64,000 nucleotides of DNA from NCBI RefSeq assembly GCF_017086445.1, contig NZ_CP070968.1, forward strand, positions 434,001 to 498,000. Reading direction: 5' to 3'. The position numbers and the translations under genes are program-made. Within the stretch, counting starts at the first letter, position 1; each line of letters begins with the position of its first letter. Origin of the DNA: Brevundimonas fontaquae (GTDB taxonomy: Bacteria > Pseudomonadota > Alphaproteobacteria > Caulobacterales > Caulobacteraceae). The notes beneath the pieces were generated by a model. The model searched no databases, had not been told where the DNA came from, and saw nothing but the letters and a program-made list of their open reading frames with translations. Below are positions 13,372-16,378 of this stretch, one piece after another.

Positions 13372-14625
13372 ATGGCTGATACCGAACGCTACGACATCGT
13401 CATCGCCGGCGCGGGGCTGACCGGGGCGGCCTTCGCCCTGGCGGCGGCGCAAGGCGGGTTGAAGGTCGTGATGGTCGATCCGCAGCCGTTCAGCGCCCAG
13501 TTGGCGCCGACCTTCGACGGACGGTCGACCGCCGTGGCCTTTTCGACCTTCCGCATGCTGGACGCGCTTGGCCTAGGCGAAACCCTGCGTCCCCACGCCT
13601 GCCGGATGGACCATATTCTGGTGACGGACGGGCGTCGGCCGGGCGCGGCCAGCCGGTCCGCCTCGCCCGCCTTCCTGCGCTTCGACGCCGACGAGATCGG
13701 CGGCCGCACCGGCGGCGAACCGCTGGGCTATATGGTCGAGAACCGTCGCATCCGTGCGGCCCTGGCCGAGGCGGTGACGCGCGCGGGGATCGCGGTGCGG
13801 GCCCCGGCGACCGTCGCCAGCGTCGCGACCGATGCGGGCAAGGCGGCCGTGACCCTGGCCGATGGATCGACCCTGATCGCCCCCCTGGTCGTCGGCGCGG
13901 AGGGGCGAGGCTCGGCCGTGCGCCGCGCGGCCGGGATCGAGACCGTCGGCTGGGGCTATGGCCAGAGCGGCGTTGTGGCGACGGTGCGGCTGGGTCGCGA
14001 CCATGGCAATGTCGCCCACGAATATTTCCTGCCCAGCGGCCCCTTCGCCATCCTGCCCCTGACGGATCAGCGCGCCAGCCTGGTCTGGACCGAGACGACG
14101 CGGCGGGGCGAGGCGCTGCGCGACGCCTCGGACGATGCGTTCCACGCCCATCTGATGCGGCGGTTCGGAGAGTTTCTCGATGGGGCGACGGTCGAGGGCC
14201 CGCGCTTCGTCTATCCGCTGTCGCTCAGCCTGGCGGAGAAACTGATCGCGCCGCGCATCGCCCTGATCGGGGACGCCGCACACGGAGTGCATCCGGTCGC
14301 CGGCCAGGGTCTGAACATGGGGCTGAAGGATGCGGCCGCTCTGGCCGAGGTGCTGGCCGAGGCCGCGCGCCTGGGCGAGGACATCGGGTCGGAAACCGTT
14401 CTGGAGCGTTACGCCCGCTGGCGCCGGTTCGACAACGCGGCCTTGGCGGCGGGTTTCGACGCCTTCGTACGCCTGTTCTCTAACGACATCGCGCCGGTGC
14501 GTCTGGCGCGCGATCTCGGCATGGCGGCGGTCAACCGGATCGGGCCGTTGCGTCGCGCCTTCATGCAGGAAGCCGGCGGCGCGACGGGGGATTTGCCTAG
14601 GTTGCTACGCGGCGAGGCATTTTAG
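13372..14625 (+). CDS. UbiH/UbiF/COQ6-family FAD-dependent ubiquinone-biosynthesis hydroxylase
   Basis: 417 residues, usual length. N-terminal Rossmann motif VIAGAGLTGAAFALAAA for FAD ADP binding; central DG-type motif LVVGAEGRGSAVRRAAGI; C-terminal second FAD motif ALIGDAAHGVHPVAGQGLN followed by MGLKDAAALAEVL. This is the class A flavin monooxygenase pattern of the UbiH/COQ6 group, which hydroxylates the polyprenyl-phenol ring during ubiquinone synthesis. Which ring carbon it acts on (UbiH, UbiF, UbiI or the broader UbiL/UbiM type) cannot be read from sequence alone. It is transcribed divergently from ftsK. Confidence 0.88.
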   Translation: MADTERYDIVIAGAGLTGAAFALAAAQGGLKVVMVDPQPFSAQLAPTFDGRSTAVAFSTFRMLDALGLGETLRPHACRMDHILVTDGRRPGAASRSASPAFLRFDADEIGGRTGGEPLGYMVENRRIRAALAEAVTRAGIAVRAPATVASVATDAGKAAVTLADGSTLIAPLVVGAEGRGSAVRRAAGIETVGWGYGQSGVVATVRLGRDHGNVAHEYFLPSGPFAILPLTDQRASLVWTETTRRGEALRDASDDAFHAHLMRRFGEFLDGATVEGPRFVYPLSLSLAEKLIAPRIALIGDAAHGVHPVAGQGLNMGLKDAAALAEVLAEAARLGEDIGSETVLERYARWRRFDNAALAAGFDAFVRLFSNDIAPVRLARDLGMAAVNRIGPLRRAFMQEAGGATGDLPRLLRGEAF

Positions 14626-14682
14626 GCCTGCTTAAGCTAACCAATTGAAATCGGAATCAAATTTAGCTTCAGGTCCACAAAA

Positions 14683-14709
14683 TTGACCGTCGCTTCAATC
14701 CGTTATACG
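14683..14709 (+). promoter_or_regulatory. Predicted promoter of a small RNA
   Basis: TTGACC at 14683-14688, a 13-base spacer, then GTTATACG at 14702-14709. This fits the Caulobacter housekeeping sigma-73 pattern (TTGaC-like, 10-14 bases, GCTANAWC) reasonably well. The predicted start would fall at about 14715, right before the first hairpin of the candidate RNA. Confidence 0.45.
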
Positions 14710-14714
14710 CTGAG

Positions 14715-14912
14715 AAATCGTACCGGAGAGGCCATTTCTGACCTCTCCGGTACGCTACTGGTCCCCCAACGGGGCTGCACACTGCGACGGGGTGCCTCCC
14801 AACGCAGTCTGGAAGTTAAGTTATGGTGGCGGTTTCAAGTTGCCTCACCTCCTTCCGGTTCTGAGCCTAAGAGGTCGGCGAGATTGCTATGCGATCTCGC
14901 CGATTCTTTTTT
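14715..14912 (+). ncRNA. Candidate structured small RNA with intrinsic terminator
   Basis: Not recognised as a known family. In order it contains: a 13-bp perfect stem (14719-14731 with 14742-14754, 10-base loop); a CCCC-CAAC-GGGG hairpin near 14763-14774; an ACTGCG/CGCAGT stem (14781-14786 with 14803-14808) enclosing an inner GGG/CCC; about 65 less structured bases; and a strong terminator at 14875-14912. A promoter-like sequence sits immediately upstream. No open frame with a ribosome-binding site was noticed. The 3' part is antisense to the last ~75 bases of the 14835-15356 gene. The alternative is that the stems are 3' structures of ubiH mRNA. Confidence 0.5.
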
Positions 14913-15356
14913 GGGTAGTGAGTAGACAGGCCCATCTTTTCTCAATCGCCCTTGTTGCGACATTCGCCAAGCAATAGGTCCGACACTTTCGCTGGAAGCG
15001 TCAGGCCACCAAACGCGCTGAATTTCAGCAAGAATTATACGCGGTTCGAGTCCGTCGATGCCTGCCTTCTCGGCATTCTCTAAGACTTTTAAGATCATGT
15101 CAGTAACAGCGGGAAGACTTGTCGGTTTTCGGCGTGTCCCACCTGTCGGCAAAAATGCTTCAGGCCTAGGCACAACCGCTCGGGACAAATCAGCGTCGTC
15201 CGCTTCATCATCCACGTGCAGCCTTGCAAGCACCCTTTGGGCTACTTCAAGCTCGGCAGCTTCTGCGCGCAGCGACGCAATGCGAGCGTTCAGGCGATCA
15301 AGCTCATCCTCGATCTCGTCGAGGCGATCGCGCACGATTTCAGCGACGTTAGCCAT
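14835..15356 (-). CDS. Unknown protein: N-terminal coiled coil, C-terminal winged-helix-like domain
   Basis: 173 residues, not recognised. Residues about 7-50 form a heptad-rich coiled coil (IVRDRLDEIEDELDRLNARI and onward). An acidic, Pro-containing linker follows, then about residues 80-150 carry a compact domain (LPAVTDMILKVLENA, IILAEIQRVWW, IAWRMSQQGRLRKDGPVYSLP) whose helix-helix-beta-wing pattern resembles winged-helix DNA-binding modules. Base composition is visibly less GC-rich than the neighbours, suggesting transfer. It stands alone between two conserved genes, so no operon context helps. It could be a regulator, but no function can be assigned. Confidence 0.65.
   Translation of the reverse strand: MANVAEIVRDRLDEIEDELDRLNARIASLRAEAAELEVAQRVLARLHVDDEADDADLSRAVVPRPEAFLPTGGTRRKPTSLPAVTDMILKVLENAEKAGIDGLEPRIILAEIQRVWWPDASSESVGPIAWRMSQQGRLRKDGPVYSLPKKESARSHSNLADLLGSEPEGGEAT
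14875..14912 (+). terminator. Intrinsic terminator of the candidate small RNA
   Basis: Perfect 10-bp stem TCGGCGAGAT/ATCTCGCCGA (14875-14884 with 14894-14903), 9-base loop, immediately followed by TTCTTTTTT on the plus strand. It lies wholly inside the 3' coding end of the opposing gene, which is unusual for chance. Confidence 0.75.
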
Positions 15357-15562
15357 GTTCTCATCATGACGCTATGATAAGGCCAGTCAAGCCGTCATGG
15401 CGCTTTTTGGTGCTGATAACCCACAATATATCGGTCATCTGCGGAATTCTGCATGATTCTTGGTGAGTCAAGTCAGGTTTGGGAAGCGATTGTTAGTAGT
15501 GCTGTGGATAAGTCAGCCTCTAACGTCACGAAAAACTCAGAATCGCCGCTTCATCGCTCGGT
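15357..15562. other. AT-richer gap with a possible operator
   Basis: No gene seen in these 206 bases between the SirB1-like gene and the unknown winged-helix-like gene. A 7-bp inverted repeat, CATGACG at 15365-15371 and CGTCATG at 15393-15399, lies within 45 bases of that gene's ATG and could be an operator for autoregulation. Nothing else stands out. Confidence 0.4.
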
Positions 15563-16378
15563 TCAGTTCAACTGCATTCTCACGCGTTCGAACGTCGTGA
15601 AGCGGCGGGCTTCTTCTGCCCCGTCCAAACCGTGGGCGCGGGACAGGGCCTGAAGCGAGCCGGCCAGCGCGCCCTGTTTCTCGCGCGCCGAGGCGACGTC
15701 CAGCCACGGCCGGTGGTCTTCGGGGTCGAGCAGGGCGCGACGTAGGGCCGACCGCTCGGCGCCCTCATAGTCCCGACCGCGAATGGCGCGGCTAAACAGC
15801 ACGTTCTGCAGGCGGATCAGCGACTGACGATCCGTCACCGGCGCCATCAGGATATCCAGCCGATCCGCGACATGCGGCATCAGACCGGCGCGAAGAGCGC
15901 GGCGAGTCAGTTCGCTGGGCAGGATCAGCCGCCCCTGGCTGAACGGATCCAGGGCTACGGGACCTTCCGGCGTCTCGACGCGAACCATGAAATGGCCGGG
16001 AAAATCGACGCCCGCCGCCGTGATGCCGGCCGCGCGCGCCGCGTGCAGATAGAAGACCGCCAGAACGGCGGACAGGCCGCGCCGACGCTCGGCGACCGCG
16101 ATGATGTCGGTGTTGTCGGGATGGTCGTAATGGATCAGGTCGCCGTTCAGCCGCAGGTCCGCGCACAGGGTTTCGGCCAGGGCCTCGTCGGGACCTTCGC
16201 CGCCGATCCGCTCCTTCAGCCGCTCGCAGGCGTTGCGGGCCAGAGCGCGAACAGGCTCGGGATCACGCAACGGATGGTCATGGATGGCGCAGGCGATCGC
16301 CGCCTCCAGCAGGGGGAAGGCGTCGTCTTCGGCCTGACCGGCGGCGGTCAGGACGGCCTCGGCCTCCTCGCGCGTCAT
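15563..16378 (-). CDS. SirB1-family transglutaminase-like / TPR protein
   Basis: 271 residues. The N-terminal two thirds matches the SirB1 transglutaminase-like pattern: HYDHPDNTDIIAVAERRRGLSAVLAVFYLHAARAAGI followed by DFPGHFMVRVETPEGPVALDPFSQG. The C-terminal third reads as tetratricopeptide helices (RDYEGAERSALRRALLDPEDHRPWLDVASAREKQGAL). The position of the transglutaminase nucleophile is not occupied by an obvious Cys, as is common in this subfamily, so enzymatic activity is uncertain. The role in the cell is unknown. It ends the yraN-rsmI-malic enzyme strand block. Confidence 0.82.
   Translation of the reverse strand: MTREEAEAVLTAAGQAEDDAFPLLEAAIACAIHDHPLRDPEPVRALARNACERLKERIGGEGPDEALAETLCADLRLNGDLIHYDHPDNTDIIAVAERRRGLSAVLAVFYLHAARAAGITAAGVDFPGHFMVRVETPEGPVALDPFSQGRLILPSELTRRALRAGLMPHVADRLDILMAPVTDRQSLIRLQNVLFSRAIRGRDYEGAERSALRRALLDPEDHRPWLDVASAREKQGALAGSLQALSRAHGLDGAEEARRFTTFERVRMQLN

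Follow-up and report, generated by a model that had tools for sequence, protein, structure and literature searches.

Two convergent genes, a ubiH-type gene on the plus strand and a transglutaminase-like gene on the minus strand, enclose at this locus a block of DNA with one further minus-strand gene, which codes for a protein of 173 residues (Table 1). In the gap behind the ubiH-type gene, the initial annotation had placed an orphan small RNA with its own promoter, four hairpins and a terminator, antisense to the 3' end of the opposing gene. We analysed this proposal in the window, i.e. the whole 64-kb stretch of DNA, and in homologous loci of other genomes.

Table 1. Positions of the genes, predicted elements and tRNA-like domains discussed in the text (window coordinates unless a locus is named)
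Feature	Position	Strand	Basis or remark
UbiH-type FAD monooxygenase gene, left flank of insertion	13372-14625	+	
Insert of about 946 bp with 52% G+C, flanked by two convergent genes	14619-15564		Empty or near-empty junction in relatives; composition
Promoter-like pair, TTGACC-N13-GTTATACG	14683-14709	+	Sole window match to a pattern that was fitted to it
Proposed transcript, if read as cis-antisense RNA	14715-14912	+	Prediction based on the distance to the promoter-like pair and on the T-run
Hairpin 1, with 16 pairs and a GAAA loop on the minus strand, where it folds best; probably terminates the minus-strand gene	14719-14754	-	Folding; weak T-run ATTTCTC behind
Middle part, smaller predicted stems 14760-14776, 14781-14808 and 14809-14857	14760-14857	+	z -0.44, within chance
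Hairpin 4 with its T-run, within the codons for the tail of the minus-strand protein; probably a terminator on the plus strand	14873-14912	+	Folding; terminator features
Gene for 173-residue protein (long N-terminal helix, winged helix, low-confidence tail)	14835-15356	-	
Transglutaminase-like/TPR gene, right flank of insertion	15563-16378	-	
tRNA-like domain	L034:3212-3280; L035:5669-5737; L056:1572-1643; L040:1911-1981	+	Model R1
tRNA-like domain	L057:1500-1569	-	Found independently by model R1

A lineage-specific insertion

In same-genus genomes, the ubiH-type and transglutaminase-like genes almost abut. Our comparison covered this junction in the loci of 29 relatives (L005-L033), 24 of which align on both flanks and the remaining five on the left flank only, and in 20 of the 24 the aligned flanks are separated by no more than eight bases. 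The block in the window, whose G+C content contrasts with 67% for the whole 64 kb, is a lineage-specific insertion. The comparison of the same gap in relatives, which the initial annotation had suggested as a check, therefore meets an empty site that is uninformative for or against a conserved RNA. The junction is also a recurrent insertion site: other inserts of about 43, 186, 332 and 337 bases are found there in four of the 24 relatives (L017, L018, L021, L025), and those of L018 and L025 resemble each other.

The description as an orphan was justified. The sole match of the proposed RNA region in 100 other genomes is a stretch of 36 nt in G088, which sits inside a coding frame and was taken as chance, and a search of plasmid and phage records with the site gave zero matches. 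A search of 130 other same-genus genomes with the opposing protein was negative at E 0.001, although a profile search found one distant relative in one of them (G029). The failure to assign the RNA to 6S RNA, SRP RNA, tmRNA or 5S rRNA is borne out by Rfam 15, which gave no match at the gathering score in the whole window; at a permissive threshold, six sub-threshold hits fell on the site, none of them credible.

Promoter-like pair and hairpins

The elements from which a small RNA gene had been composed are indeed present. TTGACC (14683-14688) is followed on the plus strand by a 13-base spacer and by GTTATACG at 14702-14709, as had been described. The housekeeping promoter consensus of Caulobacter is TTGAC, 10-14 bases and GCTANAWC. 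The pattern TTGAC-N11-15-GYTATA has one match in the 64 kb, at this very site, and none in 100 shuffles, and TTGAC-N13-16-TATA likewise has one match against 0.05 expected, with matches in five of 100 shuffles; when only the island was shuffled (n=1000), the strict form of the promoter occurred 0.005 times and the looser form 0.055 times. However, these patterns were composed after the site had been seen, and the statistics therefore flatter the pair. A generic sigma-70 scan did not list it. We give moderate weight to the promoter-like pair, which is the single piece of evidence that favours a separate RNA.

An 80-codon frame with a TTG start (14683-14925, plus strand) crosses the site, and its start codon coincides with the -35 element. 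This frame does span the region that had been described as without a convincing open frame, and it has zero Pfam matches. On the same strand, a 13-codon ATG frame, MVAVSSCLTSFRF, is predicted within 14811-14864, with its ATG at 14823 and GGAAG seven bases upstream. We also considered an anti-Shine-Dalgarno reading of CCTCACCTCC (14843-14852, plus strand) and rejected it; this stretch is the complement of the GGEA codons near the C-terminus of the minus-strand gene, and we claim no trans-acting role for it. The GGEA residues recur in the homologues P0003 and P0004, and partly in P0002.

The folding was compared with 300 dinucleotide shuffles per segment and strand. The whole 198 nt fold far better than the shuffles on either strand (z -5.7 on plus and -6.5 on minus; a second comparison gave about -5.8), and this is due to the two outer hairpins, which carry the whole signal. 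The first hairpin has the 13 perfect pairs that had been noted on the plus strand, to which one mismatch and two further pairs can be added (-26.2 kcal/mol, z -7.0), but on the minus strand its stem runs without a break and reaches -32.4 kcal/mol (z -8.9). The last hairpin, within 14873-14905, likewise has the 10 perfect pairs originally described, with a 9-base loop, or 15 pairs if G-T is allowed, and is followed by the T-rich TTCTTTTTT; here the plus strand is preferred, with -25.3 kcal/mol (z -6.2) versus -19.3 kcal/mol (z -5.5). The 112 nt in the middle, which contain the two smaller hairpins, do not differ from chance, with z -0.44 on the plus strand, where 97 of 300 shuffles fold equally well or better, and z +0.16 on the minus strand. 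As hairpins 1 and 4 exceed the shuffles and the middle part does not, the count of four hairpins in the initial annotation is overstated by two.

With its stable G+C-rich stem and immediate T-run, hairpin 4 has the sequence features of a plus-strand intrinsic terminator, and a strong T-run is found only behind this hairpin, on that strand. For a minus-strand terminator, hairpin 1 offers a very stable stem and a weak T-run. The opposite strand preferences of the two hairpins are the pattern of two facing terminators. Hairpin 4 is encoded by residues 152-161 in the tail of the minus-strand protein, and the annotated position of the terminator inside the 3' coding end of the opposing gene, and with it the antisense geometry, is real.

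The winged-helix family and its coding ends

The structure model of the opposing protein (mean pLDDT 83) has a long helix at residues 4-52, a winged helix at residues 84-146 and a C-terminal tail of low confidence that is probably disordered, and winged-helix proteins are among its top Foldseek matches. A search with the single sequence gave six homologues, and with a profile of 13 sequences at least 734 proteins of the 7993 scored candidates reached E 0.001 or better. Few whole genomes carry the family, with 13 of 385 in the class, 3 of 390 in the family and 4 of 269 in the order, counts that each include the window's own genome. PADLOC, PHROGs and NCBIfam returned no convincing match for the protein or for those relatives that were given to each scan. 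No match was obtained when plasmids and phages were searched with the protein, viral contigs searched with the family alignment yielded no confirmed relatives, and two relatives, L034 and L035, came from genome contigs.

We examined whether hairpins at the coding end are peculiar to the window by counting perfect stems of at least 10 bp in nine nearer family loci, the window included, over the final 183 nt of each gene. Such stems occur in five of the nine (the window, L036, L037, L039 and L040, i.e. four of eight besides the window), and their sequences differ among all five. The controls gave one such stem in 174 long-frame ends of relatives, which repeat a few homologous genes, and nine in 1026 windows of equal length. 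No perfect 10-bp stem was found in the coding ends of L034, L035, L038 and L056, the last of which entered the set through its RNA and not through the family profile, nor in any of 11 more distant loci (L043-L053), where L046 and L053 have such a stem behind the stop codon. By eye, L034 and L056 show imperfect or wide-loop stems, which we left out of the count. In the ten bases behind the stem, the five stem-bearing loci have 8, 5, 3, 6 and 7 T on the antisense side versus 3, 2, 1, 1 and 4 on the sense side.

At the level of codons, the pairable tail of the window (SAR..LAD) is kept via paired changes in P0002-P0004 (SAG..PAD and twice SSR..LDD), and it is not kept in P0005; these closest homologues (P0002-P0005) are known as proteins alone. 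A general codon-pairing test was mildly positive across 121 proteins, with 10 of 121 at p 0.05 or less versus 0 of 119 control segments, and did not reach significance for the tail of P0001, the protein of the window (p 0.44). A comparable antisense promoter pair was looked for in seven homologous loci and was absent from the 300 nt next to the stop codon, the nearest such pairs being 357 nt (L040) and 439 nt (L056) away. As hairpins are found at the same place in four of the eight other nearer loci, and a comparable antisense promoter within 300 nt in none of the seven, hairpin 4 alone does not testify to an RNA gene.

In some distant relatives, we observed a tRNA-like domain that follows the winged-helix gene or overlaps its end; its acceptor stem has seven pairs, the third of them G-U, and it has a T-arm and lacks a normal anticodon arm. 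Over 25 loci, the covariance model R1, built from L034, L035, L056 and L040, found these four sources and L057 (46.9 bits), without further hits up to E 1; its one hit in the genome of the window, at E 0.046, reads like a tRNA-Ala gene (L058). Six sequences, this tRNA included, were aligned by fitting them to the structure, and in this alignment 72 of 72 cells pair, both partners have changed in 6 of 12 pairs, and every sequence has G-U as its third acceptor pair. The L040 copy has a sub-threshold tmRNA match in Rfam (22.9 bits with a gathering score of 47, E 1.5e-5), and plasmids searched with the L035 RNA gave no match. In L034, L035, L056 and L057, the domain adjoins a frame that we take to resemble a small HTH protein, and in all of these but L034 it also has what is presumably an IS1595-type transposase-like frame as a neighbour. 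A C-terminal motif such as PTGSTPVAST, which reads as an in-frame tRNA-like domain or tRNA, is present in 18 of 121 family proteins. Directly behind the gene in L034, L035 and L056, a purine-rich stretch precedes a minigene of the form ATG-AGA-AGA-stop (GACATGAGAAGATAG or -TAA), an arrangement that we also found in L044.

Two facing terminators or an antisense RNA

We favour, at roughly an even chance, an acquired winged-helix gene cassette with two convergent terminators over a dedicated small RNA gene. According to this model, the annotated region would be the 3' end of a small acquired cassette, which carries one minus-strand gene and sits between two convergent genes. Hairpin 1 would end minus-strand transcription of the cassette gene, and hairpin 4 would be a plus-strand terminator within the codons of the protein tail. 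There it could halt polymerase that has started at the promoter-like site or reads through from ubiH, ahead of an antisense passage through the cassette gene. The insertion, the opposite strand preference of both hairpins and the large coding-end hairpins in several homologous genes are observed; we infer that hairpins 1 and 4 terminate transcription in the cell, where they may be of use in shielding the gene from antisense transcription. The model leaves the promoter-like pair unexplained unless it is due to chance or minor, and the weak T-run of hairpin 1 also counts against it, as do the four nearer and 11 more distant loci that have no 10-bp stem, the tail of P0005, and the non-significant pairing in P0001.

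The main rival is a cis-antisense RNA of about 198 nt that would run from the promoter-like pair to hairpin 4 and alter the stability of the winged-helix mRNA, in the manner of convergent antisense RNAs that overlap a 3' end; we regard it as a tentative but serious possibility. Such an RNA would be complementary to the last 25 codons, the stop codon and the 3' UTR of that mRNA; by coordinates, and if the region is transcribed, 14835-14912 covers the coding end and the stop codon, and the remainder falls into the expected 3' UTR. The promoter match is the only one of its kind in 64 kb, but its pattern was fitted post hoc, and the seven homologous loci offer no counterpart within 300 nt. The expected start lies 3-5 bases ahead of hairpin 1, yet this hairpin favours the opposite strand, and the part that follows it is unstructured. 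The plus-strand terminator is strong. An RNA specific to this lineage has no conservation as support. A plus-strand RNA that ends near 14912 is expected from two facing terminators as well as from an antisense RNA.

It is also conceivable, though unlikely, that the coding-end hairpin acts in the sense mRNA, e.g. by stabilising the 3' end or binding a protein, and that the T-run on the plus strand is a by-product of lysine codons. This would agree with large hairpins of unrelated sequence at this place in five of nine nearer loci, and with the tRNA-like domains that follow on the sense strand in L034, L035, L056 and L040, but hairpin 4 is the weaker on the sense strand, and the antisense side is the T-richer one in all five stem-bearing loci. 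We consider it very unlikely that the family as a whole is a mobile two-part module, in which each gene would come with a self-contained structured RNA within or just after its coding end. This RNA would consist of a hairpin in the codons of the tail and, further on, a minigene, hairpin or tRNA-like domain, and in the window it would have turned into an antisense RNA with a promoter of its own, by which the module is controlled. Finally, a degenerate tRNA-like domain on the plus strand, like those behind the distant homologues L034, L035, L040 and L056, appeared promising when about 46 nt (14765-14810) aligned to L035 with a score of 41 versus a shuffle maximum of 31 (n=300), the best of 12 comparisons, but it is extremely improbable, as the same query reaches 41.5 with other segments of the window, from 62501 on the plus strand, the site is absent among the 27 window hits of R1 at E up to 10, its orientation to the gene is reversed, and ARAGORN and Rfam find nothing.

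If the model of two convergent terminators is right, an apparently complete small RNA gene can arise from the terminators of an acquired cassette. If the antisense RNA is real, a cis-antisense regulator would have been acquired jointly with its target. The winged-helix family, in which hairpins are encoded together with a tail that is probably disordered and a tRNA-like domain sometimes follows, would offer a testable example of RNA structure kept inside the coding ends of mobile genes.

Among known systems, RatA, an RNA of 222 nt that overlaps txpA by about 75 nt, and GadY, which overlaps the 3' UTR of gadX, are described in PMC5502269, and PMC6562991 describes SR4, which has four stem-loops and meets the bsrG RNA at the 3' ends. 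An antisense RNA in the window would resemble RatA/txpA, SR4/bsrG and GadY/gadX as an RNA of about 200 nt that runs towards a gene and is complementary to the 3' end of that gene. It would differ in that it is a predicted RNA with two hairpins beyond chance, and in its target: the opposing protein of 173 residues, with its long helix and winged helix, is not a small hydrophobic toxin of the kind that a type I toxin-antitoxin locus would have as its target. With HARE-HTH/winged-helix proteins (PF05066), the family shares the winged-helix arrangement of the model, and 8 of 39 aligned members match PF05066 at E up to 0.01; the window's own protein differs by matching no Pfam family at E 0.01, PF05066 included, and no PDB entry at E 0.001 or better in Foldseek (best 0.037). 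Compared with the intrinsic terminators of convergent genes, the arrangement in the window is unusual in that hairpin 4 lies inside a coding sequence and the T-run of hairpin 1 is weak, and it is alike in having two strong hairpins, one per strand, between convergent frames, with a T-run behind hairpin 4.
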